NCBI GenBank assembly: GCA_002787535.1
Contig: PCXB01000078.1
Span: 1-60,069, forward strand
DNA: 60,069 bases
Direction: 5' to 3'
DNA from: Deltaproteobacteria bacterium CG11_big_fil_rev_8_21_14_0_20_45_16
GTDB taxonomy: Bacteria; Bdellovibrionota; UBA2394
Part shown: piece after piece, positions 2,526 to 17,673 of the stretch
Position numbering within the stretch: position 1 is the stretch's first letter
Layout of the letters: every line of letters begins with the position of its first letter
The notes under the pieces: model-generated
What the model saw: the letters and a program-made list of their open reading frames with translations, nothing else
Told to the model about the DNA's origin: nothing
Databases searched by the model: none
Position numbers and translations under genes: made by a program

Positions 2526-4769
2526 ATGGCTTTGGGGCATTTTCGTCTCTTTATCCTCTTGATGGGGCTAGTCAATCTGCTGGCCGCTGCCCCATCCAAG
2601 CCCATCCACGATGAGCAAGTCTATGATGCAATTGGAAAAGGCGAATGGCAATCTAGTCTGGACCTGCTGGGACAACTATCCCCCAAACAAAGCAAGATGA
2701 GCTTGGGACAACGAGAGCTCCTTAAAAGACGAGCTTTATTTGAACTCGAAAAGTGGGATGAGCTTCGAAATCTTCCGGAGATTCAAGACAAGAGTCTTAA
2801 AGCCCATGACGGCTATCTCCGAGCGCGAGCGGCTTTCGAGTCCAAAAATTACGAACAATTTTTGAGTGTTAAATGGGAACAAGAATTTCCACGAAGCTTT
2901 CGAGAGATTTTGGATTTATTCAAAGCCCGAAGCCTTACCGAGCTCAATCGAATTCAAGAAGCCAAAGTGGCCTACCGTGATTTCCTTAAGAATCATCCGT
3001 ATAGTTCTGCAAAAAGCGATGCAACTCTGGAACTAGCGGATATCGAATGGCGGTTAGAAAATCAATTTGAAGCACTGGCCCTCTATGAAAAAATTTATAT
3101 CAACCATCCTGCTCGAGACACGGATAATATTGCCAAAAAGAGACTCCAAGAGACAGGGCGGCTTGACAGCCTGGATGCCGACGCTCATCTAAGTCGCATT
3201 CAACGACTTAAGCGCGCGGCTCTTTTTTCAAAAGCGATAAGAGAGCTTGCTAGTCTGGAAAAGAAAATTTCTCCGCAAGAAGCTCAGAAAGTCGAAATCG
3301 CGATTGCTCGCTTGGAGTTTGCTCAAAAAAATTATTCTCGTGCAGAAAGTTTATCGAAAAAATCACTCCGTGAGAAAGAAATTGATCCAGACTATGAAAT
3401 TCAATGGTTGCAACTTTTAGCCTTTTCACTAACTCGCCAAGGAAAGTATGATGAGGCTCGAAGCCATTACGAAGCGCTTCTACTTAAGAACCCGGCTGAC
3501 AGCATTAAGGAGACGAGCCTCTTGAGATTGGGGCTAATGGCTCTTGATGACAGGAAATTTGAGGAATCGTCTAAATATTTCGCACAGCTTCGAACAGATT
3601 TTCCAAAGGGTTCCTATCGCGAGAGCTCTCATTGGTTCGAAGCCTGGTCGCGGCTGATGAAAAATTGGAAAATCAAAAAGGGCAAACAGAGTTTATCTGA
3701 GGAGGATCAGGAATCCTTGAAACAAGCTCTTAACCTCCTCGAGACACTGCCTCAGCTACCTGAAGGTGAGGCCCTGGGGGCTCAATCCATTTATTGGATG
3801 GCTCAGATTTATGAGCTTCTGGATAACAAACGAGCCAAGGAAAAAACTAACTACAAGCTAAGTCATGAATGGAAAGCTTCGTTTCACTATCTTTTACAAG
3901 ATGAGAATTTGTTTAAGACATTTCGGTTTAATCCTCTTTTCATTGACGGAAGCATCGTGCGTAAGCCAAGCAAGAAGCACCGAATTGCTGACCCAGCTTT
4001 TCAGCAAGGCGCCTGGCAGCGATTGGAGTTCTTTGCAAACGCCAACCTTTTCTCATGGGCCAAATTGGAATTAGAGAGTTTTCTCGAGCGCACGGGTTCG
4101 AAAAATCATGGGCTAAAAGAATCCATCGCTTCCAGACTTGTTCAGCTTGAAGACTGGAGCGATCTCATTCGTTATGCTCAGCATAATTTTGACTTCCAGA
4201 TTAAGGGTCTTAATGCGCAAGACCCGATTGCCGCCTACTATTACCCTCAAAGTTATCATCAATTTGTTGTCGCCGCCGGCAAGGAATTTGAAGTCTCGCC
4301 ATTTCTCGCTTGGGGAGTCATGAGAGAGGAAAGTCGCTTTCAAGCCGATGTCATCTCTTCGGCCGGTGCCATCGGCCTTCTACAAATAATGCCATCACTC
4401 GGTGACCGCTTGGCTCGCAAGCTCAAAGTAAAACATTTTGATGCCAGTCGACTAACCGACCCCGAAACCAATGTCCGTTTAGGTGTCTATCACTTGAGAG
4501 AATTAATCGATCAAGTTCAAGGTTGGGATTTGCCCCCTGCCTTTGTCTTTCCCGTAGTTGTTGCCTCCTATAACGCGGGAACAACCCCAGTTAAACGATG
4601 GCTTAAAGAACTCGGTATGGATCGCTTAGATATTTTTGTTGAATCCATTCCTTATGCAGAGACCCGCGCCTATGTAAAACGTGTTTTGCAGAGCGCTCAA
4701 GTTTACTATCTTCTTTACGGAGAAAAAATTCAGAAAACTGCCTATGAAAACCAAAAGGGGAAACTATGA
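2526..4769 (+). CDS. slt: soluble lytic murein transglycosylase, Slt family, with TPR-like N-terminus
   Basis: Cleaves the MurNAc-GlcNAc bond of peptidoglycan in the periplasm, leaving 1,6-anhydro ends. The 747-residue protein opens with a signal peptide (hydrophobic residues about 6-22, likely cut after LLAAA). A long helical superhelix of TPR-like repeats follows (about 30-560), then a C-terminal SLT catalytic domain. The catalytic glutamate is in REESRF (Glu602), followed by AGAIGLLQIMP and the conserved VASYNAGTTPVKRWL. Its stop codon overlaps the start of the next gene in an ATGA, so it is translationally coupled to an FHA-domain sigma-54 activator. The ribosome binding site is weak. Membership of the Slt70-like class is clear; a specific role in predation or cell division cannot be read from the sequence. 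Confidence 0.92.
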   Translation: MALGHFRLFILLMGLVNLLAAAPSKPIHDEQVYDAIGKGEWQSSLDLLGQLSPKQSKMSLGQRELLKRRALFELEKWDELRNLPEIQDKSLKAHDGYLRARAAFESKNYEQFLSVKWEQEFPRSFREILDLFKARSLTELNRIQEAKVAYRDFLKNHPYSSAKSDATLELADIEWRLENQFEALALYEKIYINHPARDTDNIAKKRLQETGRLDSLDADAHLSRIQRLKRAALFSKAIRELASLEKKISPQEAQKVEIAIARLEFAQKNYSRAESLSKKSLREKEIDPDYEIQWLQLLAFSLTRQGKYDEARSHYEALLLKNPADSIKETSLLRLGLMALDDRKFEESSKYFAQLRTDFPKGSYRESSHWFEAWSRLMKNWKIKKGKQSLSEEDQESLKQALNLLETLPQLPEGEALGAQSIYWMAQIYELLDNKRAKEKTNYKLSHEWKASFHYLLQDENLFKTFRFNPLFIDGSIVRKPSKKHRIADPAFQQGAWQRLEFFANANLFSWAKLELESFLERTGSKNHGLKESIASRLVQLEDWSDLIRYAQHNFDFQIKGLNAQDPIAAYYYPQSYHQFVVAAGKEFEVSPFLAWGVMREESRFQADVISSAGAIGLLQIMPSLGDRLARKLKVKHFDASRLTDPETNVRLGVYHLRELIDQVQGWDLPPAFVFPVVVASYNAGTTPVKRWLKELGMDRLDIFVESIPYAETRAYVKRVLQSAQVYYLLYGEKIQKTAYENQKGKL

Positions 4770-6187
4770 GCACGGAGAAAACGGGAAAAACTAAAGTCAT
4801 TCGATGGGAGGAGCAGCCTACGCGCTTAATACTATCAAAGTGTAAGCTCAGCATTCTGAATGGCGAGCAAGAGGGCAAAGAATTTACGTTAACTCAACCT
4901 ATCATTCGGGTAGGAACTCGTGGCGACAATGAAATCGCCTTAAAAGATGATACGATGAGCAGACTGCACTTCGAAATCAAACAAACAAAAAATGGTTACC
5001 TCGTTCAAGATGCTGACTCATTGAATGGTGTCTATATTAATGGCATACGAGTGAAAGAAGCTTTTCTTAGCACGGGCGCTTTGATTCGAGCGGGCAAAAC
5101 GGAAATGAAGTTTATGCCTTTGGACGAAACCTTTGAGATTACTCCGAGTAAGAAAAGTAAGTTTGCCAACTTGATTGGTGGCAGCAACGCGATGCGAAAG
5201 ATCTACACGATCATTGAAAAGATCGCCCAAACCGACGTCACAGTGATTATTGAAGGCGAATCAGGGACAGGAAAAGAACTTGTAGCCTCAGCGATTCATG
5301 AGAAAAGTAAACGCGCTAAAAAACCCTTTGTTGTTTTTGATTGTTCAGCGGTTGCTGAAAACCTCATCGAGAGCGAACTCTTTGGTCACGAAAAAGGTTC
5401 CTTTACGGGAGCGACCGGGCTTCGAAATGGAGCCTTTGAATTAGCGGACGGAGGCTCAATCTTTTTGGATGAAATCGGCGAACTCCAAATGGACCTTCAA
5501 CCTAAACTCTTACGAGTTTTAGAGTCTCGACACATTCGTCGAGTCGGTGGCGATCGAGTGCTACCCGTTGATGTTCGAGTTATCGCTGCCACCAACAGAA
5601 ATTTGGAAGCGGAAGCCAAAAAAGGAAGTTTCCGAGAAGATTTGTTTTATCGGTTAAATGTGATTCCGATTTATCTTCCGCCTTTACGAAAGCGAAAAGA
5701 AGATGTTCCCCTTTTGGTCGATCATTTTATCGAGGAACATAATAGAGTCCATCCCGAGAGAGCCATCGAAGGCATCAGCTCTAGTGCTATGGAGTTACTA
5801 CTCTCTTACGACTGGCCTGGAAATGTACGAGAACTTCGCAATACGATTAGCCGGGCTCTGTCGATGATGGAGGGCTCACAAATAATTCCTGAGGATATTC
5901 CAGAACGAGTCCGCGTCCCAGTCGCCAAGGCCGAACTCGATATCCGTGATGATTTGGGTTTCAAGGATGCCAAGGAACAATGGGTGGCTTCTTTTGAAAA
6001 ACAATACCTCGAAGAAATCCTACAGCGAAATGGTTACAATATATCAGCCGCAGCTAAAGAAGCGGGTATTGATCGAAAAAGCGTGCAAAGACTTGTTCGA
6101 AAATACGGTATCAATGCGGGACGAGGCCGAATGGGCGGCAATGATGATGGAGACTTTGAAGATGAGGTCGAAGAAACGAAGGAATAA
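4766..6187 (+). CDS. FHA-domain sigma-54-dependent transcriptional activator
   Basis: An enhancer-binding protein that drives RNA polymerase with sigma-54 using ATP hydrolysis. The order is an N-terminal FHA domain (about 28-110, with VGTRGDNEI, the SRLHFEI core and SLNGVYING), then an AAA+ domain (about 125-370). Walker A is GESGTGKE (164-171), the sigma-54 contact loop is GSFTGA, and GNVRELRNTI marks the sensor II region. The end is a Fis-type helix-turn-helix (about 405-450, NGYNISAAAKEAGIDRKSVQRL) and an acidic tail. The FHA domain replaces the usual receiver domain, so the input is probably a phosphothreonine on a protein made by a Ser/Thr kinase; this architecture is frequent in myxobacteria and relatives. 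The ATG overlaps the slt stop by 4 bases. The loop has Ser where the consensus GAFTGA has Ala, a common change. Confidence 0.95.
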   Translation: MSTEKTGKTKVIRWEEQPTRLILSKCKLSILNGEQEGKEFTLTQPIIRVGTRGDNEIALKDDTMSRLHFEIKQTKNGYLVQDADSLNGVYINGIRVKEAFLSTGALIRAGKTEMKFMPLDETFEITPSKKSKFANLIGGSNAMRKIYTIIEKIAQTDVTVIIEGESGTGKELVASAIHEKSKRAKKPFVVFDCSAVAENLIESELFGHEKGSFTGATGLRNGAFELADGGSIFLDEIGELQMDLQPKLLRVLESRHIRRVGGDRVLPVDVRVIAATNRNLEAEAKKGSFREDLFYRLNVIPIYLPPLRKRKEDVPLLVDHFIEEHNRVHPERAIEGISSSAMELLLSYDWPGNVRELRNTISRALSMMEGSQIIPEDIPERVRVPVAKAELDIRDDLGFKDAKEQWVASFEKQYLEEILQRNGYNISAAAKEAGIDRKSVQRLVRKYGINAGRGRMGGNDDGDFEDEVEETKE

Positions 6188-8710: not shown

Positions 8711-9298
8711 TCAGAGCTTTAAACGCTCTTTCTCCACAATATCAAGGAGTTGTTGATAGGCGCTGGAAAACTCGCCATTTTCTATCCTGTACTCATAGGA
8801 TGGGGCCATGGCGATTTCTCGAGCCGCCTCTTCCAGCCTCATTTCGAGATCCTTTTGATTGTTTTGACGGCGCTCGCGTAGTCGACGTTCAAGCTCCTGC
8901 ATCGATGGTGGCAAAATAAACACCGTAACAGAATCCCGACCCATCCGCTTTTTAACAAATGATGCCCCTATGGTATCGATATCCATCACAATAATTTTGG
9001 CCTTCTTTAGACTTTCTTTTACAGGCCCCACAGGTGTCGCATAGAAATTACCAAAAACCTCGGCCCATTCCAAAAATTGCCAGGCCTCTTTCATCCTTTC
9101 AAACTCCTCATGGGAGACGAAAATATAATCCTTACCGGAAAGCTCCCCGGGTCGCTGAGGACGTGTGGTCACCGAGATGGAGCGATCCACATATTCATGT
9201 TCTGCAGCAAGTCGATCACAGAGGCTGGTCTTCCCACTGCCTGAAGGGCCGGATACACAAAGAACAAAACCTCGAGTTTTTTGATCCGTTTCGACCAT
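8711..9298 (-). CDS. gmk: guanylate kinase
   Basis: Phosphorylates GMP to GDP with ATP. The P-loop GPSGSGKTS is at residues 17-25. The GMP-binding stretch SISVTTRPQRPGELSGKDY follows at about 40-58, then the FLEWAEVFGNFYATP segment; 195 residues is a normal length. A 60-base gap precedes rpoZ, and the stop of yicC is only 3 bases upstream of its ATG, so it is almost certainly co-transcribed with yicC. GMP kinase is a known target of ppGpp in many bacteria, which fits its position in front of rel. Confidence 0.95.
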   Translation of the reverse strand: MVETDQKTRGFVLCVSGPSGSGKTSLCDRLAAEHEYVDRSISVTTRPQRPGELSGKDYIFVSHEEFERMKEAWQFLEWAEVFGNFYATPVGPVKESLKKAKIIVMDIDTIGASFVKKRMGRDSVTVFILPPSMQELERRLRERRQNNQKDLEMRLEEAAREIAMAPSYEYRIENGEFSSAYQQLLDIVEKERLKL

Positions 9299-9301
9299 TT
9301 T

Positions 9302-10192
9302 TTATTCTACATTCTGAATTTGCTCTCGAATACGCTCAACCAAAGCTTTCATCTCAATAATTTCATGGGTCGTCGCAACATCCACACATTTAGAGCCCAT
9401 CGTGTTCAGTTCGCGATGCGCTTCTTGCAGTACAAACTCCATTTTGCGCCCCACCTCACCGGTTTTGCCCGCCAGAGATTCAAGCGCCTCAAGATGATGC
9501 CGCAAACGATCAATCTCTTCTTGGAAATCCGCACGTGCCACCCACAAGACAATTTCCTGCTCCAAGCGAGCCGGATCTTGATGACAAGCATTTGAAATTA
9601 GATTCAATCTTTCACGAAATCTTTCCTTTAGAGATTGAACGAGTGAGTCAGACTTGGGCTCGATCTTGGAATAAAGTGCGCGAATATCCCTCAAATGTTG
9701 CAGAATGACTTTGGTCAAGCTTTCGCCTTCCGCTCGTCTATCTTTATTAAGCAATTCAAGAGCCTGCTCCAAGACTTCTGAGGCCTGGGCTTTTTCTTGA
9801 TCCAAGGCATCAAGTTTCTCATCACTTGCAAGCCAATCAGGAAACTGCAAAAGATCTCTTAGGCCAACGGTCGACGCAAGGGAGTTCTCTTCAACAACTT
9901 TTGCAAGTGCGGAAGCAAGCTTACGAGTTTGACCGATGTTGACATGAATCTCTGGCTCGTAGCCTTCCAATACACGACGCTGAATAAAGACTTCAATTCG
10001 TCCTCGCTTGAGTCTTTTGCGAATAATTGCCGAAAACGCCTGTTCAAGACCTAAATAAGACCGGGGGGAACGAATCTGAAGATCGAGAAATTTTGAATTT
10101 ACCGATCGTATCTCAACTCGAATCTCTAATTCGCCCTGAGGACCCCGAAAGATTTTCTGGGCTCCTGCATAACCCGTCATACTCTGAAGCAT
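9302..10192 (-). CDS. yicC: YicC/YloC family endoribonuclease
   Basis: YicC-type proteins are RNases implicated in small-RNA and mRNA decay. The protein of 296 residues opens with the hallmark MLQSMTGYAGA (usual form MIRSMTGFG) and ends with the family C-terminus. That tail includes FVLQEAHRELNTMGSKCVD and MKALVERIREQIQNVE, matching the DUF1732 domain. The middle contains the typical EVRSVNSKFLDL-type segment (IRSVNSKFLDLQIRSPRS, about 28-45). It is followed within 3 bases by gmk, as in many genomes. It begins 45 bases after the beta-barrel protein gene and may share that operon's transcript. Confidence 0.92.
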   Translation of the reverse strand: MLQSMTGYAGAQKIFRGPQGELEIRVEIRSVNSKFLDLQIRSPRSYLGLEQAFSAIIRKRLKRGRIEVFIQRRVLEGYEPEIHVNIGQTRKLASALAKVVEENSLASTVGLRDLLQFPDWLASDEKLDALDQEKAQASEVLEQALELLNKDRRAEGESLTKVILQHLRDIRALYSKIEPKSDSLVQSLKERFRERLNLISNACHQDPARLEQEIVLWVARADFQEEIDRLRHHLEALESLAGKTGEVGRKMEFVLQEAHRELNTMGSKCVDVATTHEIIEMKALVERIREQIQNVE

Positions 10193-10237: not shown

Positions 10238-10819
10238 CTAAAATGTATATCGAAGATAACCTGTGGCCTGGAGGACGGCTCCCTGGAGGTCTTTGATAAT
10301 ACTCAGACTCGGATCCAAGCCCATGGCCAGGCCCTTCACCTTGAGAAAATATTGAAGACCTAGACCTGCCGTAAACATTCCTCGATAGGCCGTGCCGACG
10401 ATTTCTTTTTGATTAGGATTGGTATACCAAAGTCCTCCACCGGCGTTGGCAAATAAGGTCAGACGGCGTGTCACAGGATAGTTTCCGATTAGAAACCCAA
10501 GACCTTGATAGGCTAAAAAACTATTAGGAACACCTGATTGACCTTGGGTTGAAGTATCATGTCCGGAAAACCGAAATTGCCCCTCGATAGAGAGATACTT
10601 GATCAGATCGTATCCGGCGCGAAGTCCCACGACCCATGCATCTTCAAAAACCCGTCGATCATTTTGATTCAAAAAATAAATCTGCCCCGTACTCATTCCG
10701 ACATAAAAACCCCGTGGCACATCCTGCGTGTCGTCCACAGCTTCTTGAGACATAAGTCCTCGAGAAAATCCCGCCAAAGCCAGGAGCATAATGACTGATG
10801 CGATCCATTTTAATTTCAT
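10238..10819 (-). CDS. outer-membrane beta-barrel protein of the Glt-like cluster
   Basis: The reading frame is open further upstream, but I start it at the ATG complementary to 10817-10819. That ATG has ggga 8 bases before it, and it begins a clean signal peptide (MKLKWIASVIMLLALAGFSRG). This gives 193 residues. Alternating polar/hydrophobic strands with many aromatic and Gly residues (GYDLIKYLSIEGQFRF, LTLFANAGGGLWY, GLGLQYFLKV) and the terminal aromatic TGYLRYTF fit an OmpA/OmpW-sized outer-membrane barrel. It starts just after the GltG-like gene stop, so it is likely part of that envelope module. In Myxococcus the gliding complex includes outer-membrane barrels such as GltA and GltB. Equating this protein with one of them is inference. 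Confidence 0.75.
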   Translation of the reverse strand: MKLKWIASVIMLLALAGFSRGLMSQEAVDDTQDVPRGFYVGMSTGQIYFLNQNDRRVFEDAWVVGLRAGYDLIKYLSIEGQFRFSGHDTSTQGQSGVPNSFLAYQGLGFLIGNYPVTRRLTLFANAGGGLWYTNPNQKEIVGTAYRGMFTAGLGLQYFLKVKGLAMGLDPSLSIIKDLQGAVLQATGYLRYTF

Positions 10820-10842
10820 TACGCGTCTCCCTATAATATCCA

Positions 10843-12918
10843 TCAACCACCTTTTCGGAAAACAAAGGGCCACGATACTTGAGCACCCGACCCACCACGA
10901 GGCTGTGGAAATTGCCAGCTCTCGATTCTGCGGGCCACGCAATCAAACAAGCCAGCTTCATTTCCAAAGCTACTCTGTTGTTGAAGGTTCTGAGCGCGGC
11001 CCGATCGATTGACAAACCAGCCCACTTTAAGACGTCCCGATAAATTCATATTTCCTGAGTTAATCAGGGCTTTCTCGTAACACGCTCGAATCTCATTTTG
11101 ATGTGCCATCACGACCCGCTCGATCTCTTCGCGAGTCAAACCGTCTCGAACTTCTACTTCTTCTTGGACATAAGAAACTTCGGCCTCACCCTTTTTGCCG
11201 CTACTCCCGAGACCAAAACCAGAGCGACCACCGCCCTTACCTTTAGTTCCAAGTCCACCCACATCTAATGAACTTCCGCCGCCACCAAATTCTTTTCCAC
11301 GTTCCCCACGTCCACCAGCCCCTCGTCCATCAGCCGTTGAGACACGTTCAAGCCCCGCTAGAGCGCCTTCTAGAGCACCTCCTAGACCTTCCCCCTCAGC
11401 TCTCCCACCGGAAGATGATTTTCCGCCGCCTCCGCTGCTACCCAAAACTCCCAATATTCCTTGATCCTCAACACGAATTTTAGGCTTGGGTTTAAGAGTG
11501 GCAACTTGTTGGCCCGTGCCCTTGGGTTTTTCCTTTCCAGTTCCGACGCCTCGATCAGGCGTCAAGCCTCGTTTGGCCACTTCGGATTTTTCCGAACCAA
11601 AGGCCCCTTTTGGAATAGCTTTTTTCGGGGGACTCGCCTTTGATTTGTATCCAATGGCGCGACCCTTAGCTTTCGTCGTGCCGTCTTTGCTTCCTCGCTT
11701 CCCTTCGGCGCCCTTGGCGCGAGCGCCCTGGCCTTCCGTTCCCGAGCTCTGGACTTTCTTCTGAGCCGTCGGCCCGGTTTTTACTTCCGGCCTGGGCTCC
11801 ACTTTCGGCTTTGGTGCCGGCGGCGTAGGTAAAGGTTCAAATTTAGGTTTTTCAACCTCTGGCTTTTCAAGTTGAAGTACTGCGACCGGCTCTTCCTCGA
11901 TGACGTCTTCCCGGGCTTCGGACAAACCTCCGACAATCAATAAAAATAAAACAAAAGAAGTAGCCACCGTCGCCAGCACACCCGAAAAGAAGGCTTCTTT
12001 AACCAAAGGAGCTTCTAAGGCCTCCGTAATTCGCAGTCGCACCGCCTGAATAAAAAAGCTAAAGGGCCCCATCTCAATCAAACAACGATCTTCAAACGGT
12101 ATAAAAGTGCTCAATCCCATCTCGGAAGGCCGAGCCAGTTTTCGAAGCTCCTCAAGATCTTTTGTTTCTTTACGAGTTTCAACCAATCCATTCATCGAGG
12201 CATGAAGATTCATCTCGATTCCCGTCGGAAGAATCTTCAAAAATTCAAAGCTGTCAGGAAATCCGGGCAAATGAATGACAAGATCATTACCAGCGCCGGT
12301 TCCGATATGAACGCTCTGACCCCTATCGAAACATTTGATATCAATTAATTCTTCTTTCCAAAACAGTGAAACTTGAACCCAATCCTTCGTTTGTGTTACT
12401 CGCTGAGGAGCCACTTTTAAAATAACTGGGGTTTTTAAACTTACTTCCGTCCTGGAATCGTCCGCAGGTGGCTCGATTGGCAGAGGCGAGACCTCATCCA
12501 TCGGCTCGGTCGATTCACCTTCCGGTTGAGGTTTCTTAGAAAGCTTTGTTCCCGTAAGCTCAGGAACCTGTCGTATCTCAACAGGAGTCAGATCAAATAC
12601 GGTTGACTCCTCTACGGTTTTTGAAATGCGCTCAATATGAATTTCAGTATCCCCGATTTTAAAGGAGTCACCAGCTTTGATGGCTTGCTTATCAATCTTC
12701 TGCCCCTGAAATTGAGTTCCGTTGGCCGACTGTAAATCGACGAGACGAACTTGACCCGCATCCGTTGGCTCCAAAATACAATGCTGACGAGAAGCTAAAT
12801 TGTCTTGAAGTACGAGATCACAAATTTTCGATCTCCCCATCAATATAGGAAGCCTGTCGAATATAGATTCAACGCTTTCGTGAGTCTTTAAATTAACAAT
12901 TTTTAGTATAATTTTCAC
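10843..12918 (-). CDS. GltG-like FHA / transmembrane / AgmX-PglI (TonB-like) protein
   Basis: A 691-residue inner-membrane protein with three parts. The cytoplasmic N-terminus has an FHA domain (about 20-95: LMGRSKICDLVLQ, ASRQHCIL, SANGTQFQG). A second, degenerate FHA-like segment follows at about 190-260 (VHIGTGAGNDLVI). One membrane helix spans about 306-329. The periplasmic part is a Pro/Lys- then Gly/Ser-rich linker (about 335-575) and a C-terminal AgmX/PglI domain containing HQNEIRACYEKAL, LKVGWFVNRSGRAQ and RRIESWQFPQP. This order matches GltG of the Myxococcus gliding/focal-adhesion machinery. There, cytoplasmic FHA signalling is linked across the envelope to outer-membrane partners. 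Neighbours on both sides (LolA-like, TPR protein, barrel protein) fit such a complex. Function in gliding rather than another envelope task is inference. Confidence 0.85.
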   Translation of the reverse strand: MKIILKIVNLKTHESVESIFDRLPILMGRSKICDLVLQDNLASRQHCILEPTDAGQVRLVDLQSANGTQFQGQKIDKQAIKAGDSFKIGDTEIHIERISKTVEESTVFDLTPVEIRQVPELTGTKLSKKPQPEGESTEPMDEVSPLPIEPPADDSRTEVSLKTPVILKVAPQRVTQTKDWVQVSLFWKEELIDIKCFDRGQSVHIGTGAGNDLVIHLPGFPDSFEFLKILPTGIEMNLHASMNGLVETRKETKDLEELRKLARPSEMGLSTFIPFEDRCLIEMGPFSFFIQAVRLRITEALEAPLVKEAFFSGVLATVATSFVLFLLIVGGLSEAREDVIEEEPVAVLQLEKPEVEKPKFEPLPTPPAPKPKVEPRPEVKTGPTAQKKVQSSGTEGQGARAKGAEGKRGSKDGTTKAKGRAIGYKSKASPPKKAIPKGAFGSEKSEVAKRGLTPDRGVGTGKEKPKGTGQQVATLKPKPKIRVEDQGILGVLGSSGGGGKSSSGGRAEGEGLGGALEGALAGLERVSTADGRGAGGRGERGKEFGGGGSSLDVGGLGTKGKGGGRSGFGLGSSGKKGEAEVSYVQEEVEVRDGLTREEIERVVMAHQNEIRACYEKALINSGNMNLSGRLKVGWFVNRSGRAQNLQQQSSFGNEAGLFDCVARRIESWQFPQPRGGSGAQVSWPFVFRKGG

Positions 12919-13016
12919 AGCTTAGGTGGTTTTGCCTATAGTAAAAGGCTAACCGATGCTCCGAAAAATTCCTACAGATTTACAGACTAACTCGCTGCAT
13001 CATTTTGCGGCGGCGC

Positions 13017-13523
13017 TCAAAACTTCCAATTGAAAAATCGAATTTGGCTACTGCCATCCAGCTGATCATGAACAATCGCCTGACTAACCCGCGAGTTTTC
13101 GACCCAAACATCAATCGATTTGAAGCTCGTCTCAAGCCCCTTCTTAACCTTTAGACGAAACTGTTTCGTCGAAACCTTTTCTATATCAAATATTTTTGAA
13201 TCAGCCTCCCCCCATAAAAATGAAAAAGCTTCTTCCAAGCTGATGCCCGGCGTCGTCACGAGCTCGCCGTCAACCCAAAGTTGCTTGCCGTCGAATCGGA
13301 TTTTCTTTTTTTGGGGTTTCTCATATACCCATTCAAATTGATTGGGCTTTGTGAACTGAATCCGCCCGGAGGCTTGTTCGGGATCATCCGGAAACAATTC
13401 TTGCGTTACCTTTTGCTCAAATTGAACTTTGAAGCTTTCTTTGTTTTTAAACTCCAAACGCACCGAATCCAATGCCGGATGGCCCGCCGAAATCAAGGAG
13501 ATTAAAACTAAAGCAAGAGTCAC
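13017..13523 (-). CDS. LolA-like periplasmic lipoprotein-carrier protein
   Basis: LolA proteins carry lipoproteins from the inner to the outer membrane through the periplasm. The 168-residue product has a short signal sequence (MTLALVLISLISAG). A LolA-type half-barrel follows: SFKVQFEQKVTQ, GRIQFTKPNQFEWVYEKP, IRFDGKQLWV, and a C-terminal QIRFFNWKF. It starts at a GTG (complement of 13521-13523) only 5 bases after the previous gene's stop, so it depends on upstream translation. Its place inside the Glt-like cluster suggests a dedicated carrier for an outer-membrane component of that machine rather than the housekeeping LolA; the latter cannot be excluded. Confidence 0.82.
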   Translation of the reverse strand: MTLALVLISLISAGHPALDSVRLEFKNKESFKVQFEQKVTQELFPDDPEQASGRIQFTKPNQFEWVYEKPQKKKIRFDGKQLWVDGELVTTPGISLEEAFSFLWGEADSKIFDIEKVSTKQFRLKVKKGLETSFKSIDVWVENSRVSQAIVHDQLDGSSQIRFFNWKF

Positions 13524-13528
13524 GCCTA

Positions 13529-13822
13529 TTATCTAGCTTCTTGAGCGGACGTCTTCAATTCAGGAATAAAGGAACGTCTAAGGTTTAATGAACTCTTAAA
13601 AGGAACGCGATCCTTCCGAAACACGCTGGAACCTTCGGGTCCTACTTTATCTCCCCGGATCAAAGTATCCTCGAAGTCATAATAAGACTTCTCCTTATAA
13701 ATGATTCTCTTTCTTAGCTCAGGACTGAGCGCCGGCCTAGATTCATCGCTTTGGCCAAAGCTCACGATCACGCTAAACAGCATATAAGAAAGCAAAGTAC
13801 ATAATACGCATCGGAGAGCCAT
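13529..13822 (-). CDS. small secreted protein of the Glt-like cluster
   Basis: A 97-residue protein with a clear signal peptide (CVLCTLLSYMLFSVIVSFGQS). The mature part is short, charged and unlike any enzyme. Its most ordered segment is YKEKSYYDFEDTLIRGDKVG followed by GSSVFRKDRVPF and RRSFIPEL. I recall similar YDFED-x-G-x(3)-PxG patterns in small proteins next to gliding genes of myxobacteria (for example CglF-type proteins), but this is from memory and uncertain. It lies 5 bases upstream of the LolA-like gene and 42 bases after the TPR gene. No strong ribosome binding site is visible. Confidence 0.65.
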   Translation of the reverse strand: MALRCVLCTLLSYMLFSVIVSFGQSDESRPALSPELRKRIIYKEKSYYDFEDTLIRGDKVGPEGSSVFRKDRVPFKSSLNLRRSFIPELKTSAQEAR

Positions 13823-13864
13823 ATACTTATTATCTAAAAGAACTGGCGGGATGTCTACGACGAC

Positions 13865-16432
13865 TTAACCTTTTAGGCCTGCTGTCTTATCCGCCGCCGC
13901 TTTCGCCTCGGAAGCCTTAACTTCATAAGCAGCGGCTTGCTCGCTTACGGCATTAAGATACTTTTGACGATCGTCTCCTTCGAGCACGGAAGGTACAGGG
14001 GCTTGACGAAGACTATTGGCCATATGGGAATAGGCCTCGCTCAAAAGCTTCAAAGCTTCGACAGCCAGGGGTGCGTAGCCAAGCTGAACAAACTGAGTTA
14101 CTTCGGTTTCGAATTTTTCAAGGCCTCTCATTTTTTTCTGAGTATTTTCCTTAAGCGTTTTAATACTAGACATCGAAAGACTTTCAAAGTTCTGGTGCGT
14201 GACTTCAAGAGCTCGAATGCGGCCTCGGGCCACCGCTTCGCGGTTGTCATCGGTCACCGGTAAACTCGCAAATTCCTTCTCTAAACTTCGCTTCTCCGAG
14301 TCAGTAGAGAAGTCATAAAGCATCATTCCCATATTGCCTCGAGTCGCCGCCGGTTGTGCACGCATCTGCTTCAACCAGGTATCGCGATAAGCTCGATAGG
14401 CGCTTAGGATTTGAGTCCCCGGTTTGATATAAGTTAAAAAATCTCCCATTAGCTTAATGGCTTCAGGAGCAAATTTGGAGTTAGGGTAGCGCTGAGTAAG
14501 AAGTTGAAAACTAGCTCGAAGCTCCGAGAAATTTTTATCTTGTGCCGCTGAAGCCGCATTAGCGTACAACTGCAATCCCGCCCAAATGGAAGCATCCACA
14601 AATGATGATTGGGGATAGTTACGAGCAAATTCCATATAGCGGCTGGCCACTCGACTTAATTCGCTCATTTGACTCTCCAGGGGTAAGGACTTCGCTTTGG
14701 TCTCATCTTCCTGAATGGTTTTGAAAACAGCTTTCTGTTCAATCATGCTTAAATAAGATTTTTCAGATCCACTGGCCGACGATTGAAAGTCCTTTGCAAG
14801 CTGTGCAACTTGAGCATAATCCTTTCTAAGATTATAAATATCCAAAACTAACTGCGCCGATAGCTTGGCCTCTTCGGTTCCTGCATGTTGCTTCGCCAGC
14901 GTTTCAAATATCGGCAAAGCTCGATCAAAATCATTAAGCTGATAAAGAAGGCGAGCTGATTGATAACTCGCTTTTCGTCGTTTATTTATATCCATATTGG
15001 ACAGCCTGGCGACAAAGCTCGCGGCTTCCAAAAATCTCTCGTCATCGGGGCTTGCGGCCTGAACATTTTTGCCCTGATAACGAAATCCAGGAGCCGTTTT
15101 TTCGGTCGTTAAATACCAGTTCCAAGCAGCTTCCGTTTGTTTATCATGAGGCTCTTTGGCCGCCAACTCATAGGCCTTAGAGGCCTCAGAAAAGCGGGCT
15201 CGGGCATAAAGGGCTTCGCCGTAATAAAACGACGTTTCGGCATGCTTGGCGGGCGATTCGTCTCCGAGCTGAAAGTAAGCCTGATAATAAGCAATGGCTT
15301 GATCAAGAAGAACGGACTTTCGCTTAGGATCCTTCTCGACCTGAGCTTCAGAGTGATATTTTTTAGCATTAGAATAAATTTTTGATCTCAGTGCGGGCGA
15401 GTTTCCCGCCACGCCGCTGAGTCGAGAAACAAGTTTAGCGATCTGATCGGATCGTCCCATTTTTTCTTCCGCCTCAAGTTGACCCGAGACCCATGTTTCG
15501 GCATCAACCTCCTGAGGAAATCTCTGAAGAAGGTAAGCATAGACTTTGCTCGCCGTCGCATATTCGCCCTTATCATTGAGACCTTTGGCAAGACCAGAGA
15601 GTCCAATTTTCAGAAGCTCTGCACTTTTTAGAATTCCTTCGAGATAAGGAATCACTTTGGATGGAGAGTAGACTTCAATCGCAGGCCAAACAATTTCGCG
15701 AGCCGCGTCGCGAGAATAATCAAAGGATTTTTCGCCATCTTGAACATTTAACTTTATCACTTGTTCGAAATGCCGAAGGGCCACTCCGGGCTGATCTTGT
15801 TGAATAGCCACCCAAGCCAATTTGTAATTCGCATAGGCTCGAGATTTTTCATTCTTCAAAGCCTGTTCATAAAAATTCTTGGCCTGAGAAAACTGAGATT
15901 TATCAAAATAATAATCACCAAGCAAATAAGAGGCTTGTTCCATAATCGGTGAATTAGGAAATCGATCCGCAATTTCGGCGAGAACTGAGCCCGTTTTAGC
16001 GGAATCACCCTGCTCGATGTAGGTGCTCGCTAAAACCAATAAAGCTTCGGGCGCACGCTCGTAGTAGGGGTGATCGCGACGAAGTGTTTCTAAGGCTTCA
16101 ATAGCTTTCTGCGTATATAAAGAACTTCGGGAGTCCTGACCTTGAAGCTGAGCGAATTTGGCACTTTCAAAATATGCCTCGCCCAATCGAAACAAAAAAT
16201 TAGCGCTCTTCTCACCCTGAGGATACTTCCGAACGTATTGCTCAAGTAGAGGAATTTGTTTTTCGTAAAGTTGTTGGATCTTTTCTCTTTTTTGAAGCTC
16301 GCTGGCCGTAGGAGCCGTATCTTCAGCGTGTAAGGGACGACCCGATAAAGTTATACATGCCGTCGTTATAAGCGCGACATAAAGGCCCCATATAATTCTC
16401 TTGCCAACTGGGTCAATAGAGCGGCGGTTCAT
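13865..16432 (-). CDS. large periplasmic TPR-repeat protein, GltE/GltD-like
   Basis: I place the start at the ATG complementary to 16430-16432. It has aggg(g) 7 bases upstream and opens a proper signal peptide (RIIWGLYVALITTACITLSG, cut near PLHAE); the frame upstream of it looks non-coding. The mature protein of about 820 residues is nearly all helical tetratricopeptide repeats, for example LEQYVRKYPQGEKSANFLFR, FRLGEAYFESAKFAQLQG and YLLGDYYFDKSQFSQAKNFY. The C-terminal third is less regular. Such proteins act as scaffolds. In Myxococcus, periplasmic/outer-membrane TPR proteins (GltD, GltE) bridge the gliding complex. It is the first gene of the minus-strand run and faces the CpaF-like ATPase gene across 107 bases. 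Cysteine placement does not suggest a lipobox. Confidence 0.75.
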   Translation of the reverse strand: MNRRSIDPVGKRIIWGLYVALITTACITLSGRPLHAEDTAPTASELQKREKIQQLYEKQIPLLEQYVRKYPQGEKSANFLFRLGEAYFESAKFAQLQGQDSRSSLYTQKAIEALETLRRDHPYYERAPEALLVLASTYIEQGDSAKTGSVLAEIADRFPNSPIMEQASYLLGDYYFDKSQFSQAKNFYEQALKNEKSRAYANYKLAWVAIQQDQPGVALRHFEQVIKLNVQDGEKSFDYSRDAAREIVWPAIEVYSPSKVIPYLEGILKSAELLKIGLSGLAKGLNDKGEYATASKVYAYLLQRFPQEVDAETWVSGQLEAEEKMGRSDQIAKLVSRLSGVAGNSPALRSKIYSNAKKYHSEAQVEKDPKRKSVLLDQAIAYYQAYFQLGDESPAKHAETSFYYGEALYARARFSEASKAYELAAKEPHDKQTEAAWNWYLTTEKTAPGFRYQGKNVQAASPDDERFLEAASFVARLSNMDINKRRKASYQSARLLYQLNDFDRALPIFETLAKQHAGTEEAKLSAQLVLDIYNLRKDYAQVAQLAKDFQSSASGSEKSYLSMIEQKAVFKTIQEDETKAKSLPLESQMSELSRVASRYMEFARNYPQSSFVDASIWAGLQLYANAASAAQDKNFSELRASFQLLTQRYPNSKFAPEAIKLMGDFLTYIKPGTQILSAYRAYRDTWLKQMRAQPAATRGNMGMMLYDFSTDSEKRSLEKEFASLPVTDDNREAVARGRIRALEVTHQNFESLSMSSIKTLKENTQKKMRGLEKFETEVTQFVQLGYAPLAVEALKLLSEAYSHMANSLRQAPVPSVLEGDDRQKYLNAVSEQAAAYEVKASEAKAAADKTAGLKG

Positions 16433-16539
16433 AAGTTTTCCCCTGTTATTATAATAGCTTAGAACTTTCATAGGCTCCCTTTTGGGTAATTTCCCCGCTC
16501 TGAGTACTGCAAGGCTTATGCCATTGTGGAGGTCCTCAA
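16433..16539. promoter_or_regulatory. divergent promoter region between TPR gene and CpaF-like gene
   Basis: The 107 bases separate the leftward TPR operon from the rightward ATPase gene. They hold ggagg at about 16527-16531 for the plus-strand gene, and aggg(g) near 16440 for the minus-strand gene. An AT-rich tattataatag stretch at 16447-16457 resembles a -10 element, but I cannot pair it with a -35, so no promoter is claimed precisely. Confidence 0.4.
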
Positions 16540-17673
16540 ATGCTCCCAAAAACGCGATATAATAGCTATTCTGTGGCAATTATCGATAGTGATACAACCC
16601 GTGCGTTTCTGGGCCCTATCCTTGAGTTTTTGGACGACGATACGGTCTCCGAAATTTTAATCAATGCGCCAGACGTAATTTATATCGAACGCAAAGGTCG
16701 TCTTTATCGGGCCGAAAGTGTTTTTGAAACCCAAGATGCCCTGATGGCCGCTGCTCGGAACGTTGCGCAATTTGTTGGCCGTCGCATTGATGAGAAGCAT
16801 CCCATTTTGGACGCGCGGCTCCCCGATGGTAGTCGAATCCATATCGTTGTTCCCCCGGCTGCTAAAGATGGTGTGTATATTGCCATTCGAAAATTTGGAA
16901 GTGAACCCTTGCTCGTAAAAGATATGATCCAAGGCGGAGCGATTTCTGTGGAAATGGCTCGATTTCTACATATGGCCGTACAGTTAAAGAAAAATTTGAT
17001 TGTATCGGGTTCCACAAGTTCAGGAAAAACAACTTTGCTCAATGCTATCTCGAGTTTCATTCCCGACGAGCAGCGAGTTGTAGTAATCGAAGATGCTTCC
17101 GAACTTCAGCTTCAACAAGAACATGTTTTAAGAATGGAAACCGTCAACAACGATAAACTCCATATCGAAATTCGCGATCTAGTTAAAAGCAGCTTGAGGC
17201 TGCGCCCGGATCGAATCGTCATTGGGGAAGTTCGAGGCCCTGAAGCTCTAGATCTTTTGCAAGCCATGAACACAGGCCATTCGGGATCGATGGCGACACT
17301 TCACGCCAACAATCCCAAGCAAGCTTTAGCGAGGCTAGAAACTCTGATTATGATGAACAGGCTTGAAATGCCTTTGATCGCCATTCGTAGTCAGATCGCC
17401 AATGCCATTCAAATAATTGTTCAAGCCTCCCGCCTTCGAGATGGTTCGCGAAAAATCACTCATATCTCGGAAGTTACCGGCCTCGATGAGGACGGAAACT
17501 ATCTGGTGAACGACATTTTTGTTCTTGAGATTTTAGGCATCGAAGGTGAAGACGAAAAACTTGTTACAGAATTTCGAGCCACGGGACACAAACCAAGCTT
17601 TTTGGAAGAAGCCAAGCGCGCCGGGATTAAAGTTCCGGACACGATGTTTGTCCAAAAACGGAAGGCTTCCTAA
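16540..17673 (+). CDS. cpaF: CpaF/TadA-family secretion ATPase
   Basis: A cytoplasmic hexameric ATPase of the type II/IV secretion superfamily. Members power Tad/Flp pili and related envelope machines. The N-terminal domain (about 20-120) carries FLDDDTVSEILINAPDVIYI and LDARLPDGSRIHIVVPP. The core has Walker A GSTSSGKTT at 157-165, an Asp box VVVIEDASELQL, Walker B RIVIGEVRGPEAL, and the His box GHSGSMATLHANN. Length 377 is typical. ggagg lies 7 bases before the ATG. No other Tad genes (rcpC, tadB, tadC, pilin) are nearby, so the partner is unknown. Its divergent position next to the Glt-like module makes that module a candidate partner. Confidence 0.9.
   Translation: MLPKTRYNSYSVAIIDSDTTRAFLGPILEFLDDDTVSEILINAPDVIYIERKGRLYRAESVFETQDALMAAARNVAQFVGRRIDEKHPILDARLPDGSRIHIVVPPAAKDGVYIAIRKFGSEPLLVKDMIQGGAISVEMARFLHMAVQLKKNLIVSGSTSSGKTTLLNAISSFIPDEQRVVVIEDASELQLQQEHVLRMETVNNDKLHIEIRDLVKSSLRLRPDRIVIGEVRGPEALDLLQAMNTGHSGSMATLHANNPKQALARLETLIMMNRLEMPLIAIRSQIANAIQIIVQASRLRDGSRKITHISEVTGLDEDGNYLVNDIFVLEILGIEGEDEKLVTEFRATGHKPSFLEEAKRAGIKVPDTMFVQKRKAS

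Follow-up and report, generated by a model that had tools for sequence, protein, structure and literature searches.

Agl-Glt machines and the glt run of the window

The closest described systems are the Agl-Glt and Agl-Nfs surface machines of Myxococcus. In Myxococcus xanthus, the G1 cluster follows the order gltD-E-F-G-H (Table 1 in PMC3169522), G2 comprises gltK-B-A-C, and the motor genes aglRQS (M1) stand at a third locus. AglR contacts GltG in two-hybrid assays (PMC3169522), and the proton-driven Agl motor powers gliding as well as, when combined with Nfs paralogues, the assembly of the spore coat (PMC3858216). The nfsA-H genes of the spore-coat machine, a paralogous set without I, J and K that relies on the same kind of motor, form one cluster, and the core complex is also present in bacteria for which gliding has not been described (PMC3169522). 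The gliding motor of the Bdellovibrionota is still to be identified (PMC13104615). A 2011 study did not find gltH in Bdellovibrio and took it to be a late acquisition (PMC3169522).

We analysed a 60,069-nucleotide stretch of DNA (the window) from a member of the Bdellovibrionota class UBA2394, a class represented here by five assembled genomes of one family. Between positions 10238 and 17673, the window carries a five-gene run on the minus strand, gltD–gltF(CglF)–lolA–gltG–cglE, and a CpaF-type ATPase gene on the plus strand; an earlier note on this DNA had placed six genes here, and all of them were confirmed at its coordinates. The run probably (at a rough probability of 0.75) constitutes the G1 part, namely gltD, F, G and the barrel gene cglE, of a proton-driven surface machine of the Agl-Glt/Nfs type that is scattered over three loci. 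It shares with Myxococcus xanthus G1 the order D, F, G, then a barrel after G, from which it differs by the insertion of lolA between gltF and gltG. With other Bdellovibrionota clusters (L198, L206; Bd0828-0838 type of Bdellovibrio) it has in common a GltD-GltF-GltG core with a GltG of the FHA type; unlike the class, these clusters lack both CglE and lolA.

The genes are tightly packed, with intervals of 42, 5, 98 and about 26 bases. A yicC homologue (9302–10192, minus strand), a context gene outside the machine, lies 45 bases downstream of cglE, and the guanylate kinase gene gmk (8711–9298, minus strand), likewise context, lies beyond it; both were named by inspection, and they also neighbour the run in other class genomes, gmk wherever the contig extends that far. 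A scan found about as many promoter-like sites as in shuffled sequences and slightly more terminator-like ones. The window also encodes a sigma-54 activator that carries an FHA domain at its N-terminus (4766–6187, plus strand), 4 kb from the glt run and separated from it by spoT, gmk and yicC.

The first gene of the run (13865–16471, minus strand) encodes a secreted, GltD-like TPR protein. Its reading frame is open to 16579 and its likely start is the ATG at 16471. This codon is preceded by a good ribosome site and lies 68 bases from the CpaF gene; the gap of 107 bases given in the earlier note holds for the alternative ATG at 16432 and is lost if the upstream one is used. In profile-profile alignment (hhalign), the protein matched GltD of other Bdellovibrionota families along its whole length, with a probability of 100 over 784 columns. 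GltD proteins of the class measure ~870-900 aa, compared with 1191 in Myxococcus xanthus. No GltE was found at the operon, and a GltD-GltE fusion as the explanation was ruled out, since the 904-aa TPR protein aligns with GltD and not with GltE. Fused GltD and GltE of about 1280 aa do occur in other Bdellovibrionota families (L199, L200, L203, L205, L208).

The remaining Glt proteins were compared with NCBIfam models built on Myxococcota proteins, which stand in for a comparison with Myxococcota genomes; CglE scored above its cut-off, and CglF and GltG were recognised below their equivalog cut-offs. The small secreted protein encoded at 13529–13822 (minus strand), left unnamed in the earlier note, corresponds to CglF (NF033764, 4.1e-7, 30 bits against a curated cut-off of 90), which is GltF (PMC4488436). 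Its orthologue in G001 also matches below the 90-bit cut-off (3e-10), and the motif YxExSYxxFEDxLIxG is common to the orthologues in the other four class genomes. GltG (10843–12918, minus strand) combines an FHA domain (PF00498, 4.5e-15), one transmembrane helix, a low-complexity linker and a TonB-like AgmX/PglI C-terminal domain (NF033768, 7e-23), both domain matches being above cut-off; the full-length model NF033760 gives 206 bits, under its strict equivalog cut-off of 650. A PDB search with GltG returned FHA domains only, and a tree built from the C-terminal domains of GltG proteins gave the class no clear position. The last gene of the run, cglE (10238–10816, minus strand; reading frame to 10942, likely start ATG 10816), encodes an outer-membrane barrel that exceeds the curated cut-off of NF033755 (106 bits against 70), and its reading frame also matches PF13505 (4.5e-11). 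The AlphaFold model of CglE has eight strands (mean pLDDT 74) and finds its best structural matches in OmpA (E 5e-7), so that the protein is modelled as an 8-strand barrel of the OmpA type. Judging from its position after GltG and its size, CglE is probably GltH.

Other probable parts of the machine and its possible output

The genes expected to complete the machine lie elsewhere in the same genome (G000). At C73, a GltC-type protein (99 bits, cut-off 450) is encoded beside a GltA/B-type barrel (TIGR04565, 106 bits, cut-off 60), and a strong TIGR04565 barrel is kept in all five class genomes. At C22, two tandem AglR-like proteins (AglR and AglR') are followed by two ExbD-type, AglQ/S-like proteins. 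A third site, C18, encodes an MglA (E 8e-100 to the Myxococcus MglA structures) that adjoins a weak MglB match. The trans-envelope, Glt-like module proposed in the earlier note is thus borne out by the homology of CglE, CglF and GltD and by the AglR/Q/S-like, GltC and MglA proteins encoded outside the run. Regarding the components it had proposed to look for, the motor was located at C22, and GltI and GltJ, like GltK, were not identified in a search via their shared AgmX tail. The overall layout resembles that of Myxococcus xanthus, with an outer-membrane barrel and GltC at a second locus, the motor at a third, and MglA in both organisms. It differs by the duplication of AglR and by the lack of identified gltE, gltI, gltJ and gltK. 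It also differs from the other Bdellovibrionota families surveyed, in which GltA/B/C, GltD, E, F and G and AglR/Q/S are encoded in one cluster.

Since the loci are unlinked, we infer the pairing of the C22 motor with the gltG module. This motor is closest to those adjoining FHA-type gltG genes in other families and less like that of a second glt-like cluster of the same genome (C66, see below). The AglR pair is present in four of the five class genomes (G000, G001, G002 and G004); G003, a 90% complete genome that does carry the gltG module, yielded no such pair. In G001, it is the sole AglR-type motor among the matches listed, and the two other PF01618 matches, by comparison with those of G000, appear to be TolQ and MotA.

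Gene identities, their order and conservation and the additional loci come from the sequences themselves; complex formation, energy source and output are proposed from homology with Myxococcus. A proton channel formed by AglR/Q/S in the inner membrane would act on GltG, a transmembrane protein predicted to have its FHA domain on the cytoplasmic side and its TonB-like tail in the periplasm. The TPR protein GltD and GltF may then carry force across the periplasm to outer-membrane barrels, the putative targets being CglE from the run and the GltA/B-type barrel with GltC from the other locus. Surface material or adhesions moved in this way would make the cell glide or spread surface polymer, and MglA may polarise the machine.

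Between these two outputs, the presence of MglA and a split layout like that of the Myxococcus gliding genes slightly favour gliding. That the module is instead Nfs-like, moving or laying down surface polysaccharide without driving gliding, is possible at somewhat less than even odds: GltI, J and K were not identified in the class and are absent from Nfs, one Agl motor serves both outputs in Myxococcus (PMC3858216), and the core complex also exists where gliding is not known (PMC3169522). Against this stand, neither of them decisively, MglA itself and the separation of gltD-H-like from gltA/C-like genes, which resembles the gliding genes of Myxococcus and not the single nfs cluster.

Two further clusters of the genome contain related genes. 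The C66 cluster (L103:10656-18319) encodes an AglR-like protein, two ExbD-type proteins, a CglF-like protein of 79 aa and a short GltG without FHA domain, as well as a sub-threshold TIGR04565 barrel, a GltC-like protein and a 934-aa TPR protein. A third, small cluster at C34 (L105:2422-6445) comprises genes for proteins of ~196 aa and 365 aa, a TPR protein and a CglF-like protein of 83 aa; the NCBIfam scan of this cluster gave a weak AgmX tail alone, in the 365-aa protein, and motor genes are absent nearby.

LolA and CpaF beside the glt genes

The lolA gene (13017–13523, minus strand) encodes an outer-membrane lipoprotein carrier with a signal peptide recognised by inspection (PF03548, 8e-14, 52 bits against a cut-off of 23.6). 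Its location inside a glt operon is a new point: in each of the five class genomes it is placed between gltF and gltG, and the 20 gltG loci surveyed from other families showed no LolA. This pattern could suggest a carrier dedicated to Glt lipoproteins, close to the earlier idea that the module has a lipoprotein carrier of its own. We consider this unlikely. Each of the five genomes has a single PF03548 match, always the one in the glt operon, so that the sorting of lipoproteins at large would otherwise lack a carrier, and none of the glt proteins encoded in the operon is an evident lipoprotein. As the sole PF03548 match in each class genome, LolA probably serves lipoproteins in general and has come to sit in the operon.

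The CpaF gene (16540–17673, plus strand; PF00437, 3e-56) stands divergent to the glt run and on the same side of it in all five class genomes, which belong to one family. At protein-family level, its product matches the CpaF/TadA ATPases, including those of solved structure (PDB 8rjf and 9e24, E about 5e-94), and KilF of Myxococcus, and its orthologues are 73-76% identical in the four other class genomes; by these values, the CpaF that the earlier note called divergent is not a very divergent sequence. The absence of other Tad genes alongside was confirmed within the window and extends to the class, where none stands beside the short CpaF (TadB/TadC, secretin and pilin genes in one locus were looked for).

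The earlier note had also offered CpaF as an ATPase belonging to the machine, which would make it the cytoplasmic energiser of an ATP-driven Glt variant. The constant arrangement in the class is the point in favour of this idea, which we nevertheless regard as very improbable. Four genes stand between CpaF and gltD in G004, and the adjacency carries little weight, since gmk, yicC and genes for acyl-CoA dehydrogenases accompany the module in the class just as constantly as CpaF does. Outside the class, the synteny of CpaF and GltG, whose absence from relatives the earlier note had named as a refutation, disappears: none of 20 CpaF neighbourhoods (15 other families) contained gltD, gltF, gltG or cglE, the GltG-profile matches of one of them (L194) being FHA proteins only and not counted as gltG, and none of 20 gltG neighbourhoods of other families contained CpaF. 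The CpaF neighbours in those genomes are instead enolase (13/20), a PhoH-like protein (9/20) and a cupredoxin-like protein (9/20), as named by inspection. Moreover, such a CpaF is nearly universal in the phylum, with or without the module alongside (matches at E 1e-95 in 177 of 192 genomes), and the genome has a proton motor. After this survey of 20 + 20 loci, CpaF was rejected as a Glt partner, and its adjacency should not be taken as a functional link; it is most likely a neighbour and not a part of the machine. That the class has recruited both CpaF and LolA into the Glt machine, giving it an ATP-driven cytoplasmic part beside the proton motor, is likewise very improbable.

The best CpaF matches listed are for the most part short, at about 380 aa, with 49-56% identity. 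Short CpaF proteins of this size (~380 aa, L178-L197) occur almost phylum-wide outside the Tad/Kil locus. In a tree, the class CpaF falls beside the short CpaF of the phylum (support 91/83), apart from the longer Tad/Kil-locus CpaF. The Tad/Kil locus of the class has a CpaF of its own, an 801-aa protein (L117:3937-6342, G003) that is fused to an N-terminus of MinD-like appearance; the short CpaF lacks this extra N-terminal part and has no Tad genes alongside. The short CpaF, a paralogue spread through the phylum and located outside the Tad/Kil locus, most likely acts elsewhere. That it serves as a second ATPase for a Tad/Kil-type machine whose genes lie at another locus, and stands beside glt by chance, comes close to an even bet. 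In one exceptional locus (L194, G114), a short CpaF gene lies in a run with those of three FHA proteins, a DUF192-like protein and a TadC-type protein, much as in a Tad/Kil locus, and Kil systems include several FHA proteins (PMC8460266). On the other hand, this is the only TadC-type gene in 20 short-CpaF neighbourhoods outside the class, the Tad/Kil locus of the class already has its CpaF fusion (L117), and Kil has been described with a single ATPase (PMC8460266).

Distribution of CglE and variation within the class

The CglE model matched at E 1e-6 in 4 of 192 Bdellovibrionota genomes, all four from the class, a count of recognisable copies only, since barrels diverge fast. This restriction of CglE to the class within the phylum is a second new point. 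The class thus combines a split layout like that of Myxococcus with CglE in the gltH position, which leaves two histories: either gltH predates the split of the Myxococcus and Bdellovibrionota groups and was then lost in most Bdellovibrionota, or the class gained the cluster by transfer. Various gene inserts split the operon or part it from CpaF in G001, G002 and G004 (L110:14101-15291, L112:10086-15464 and L114:7207-11703).
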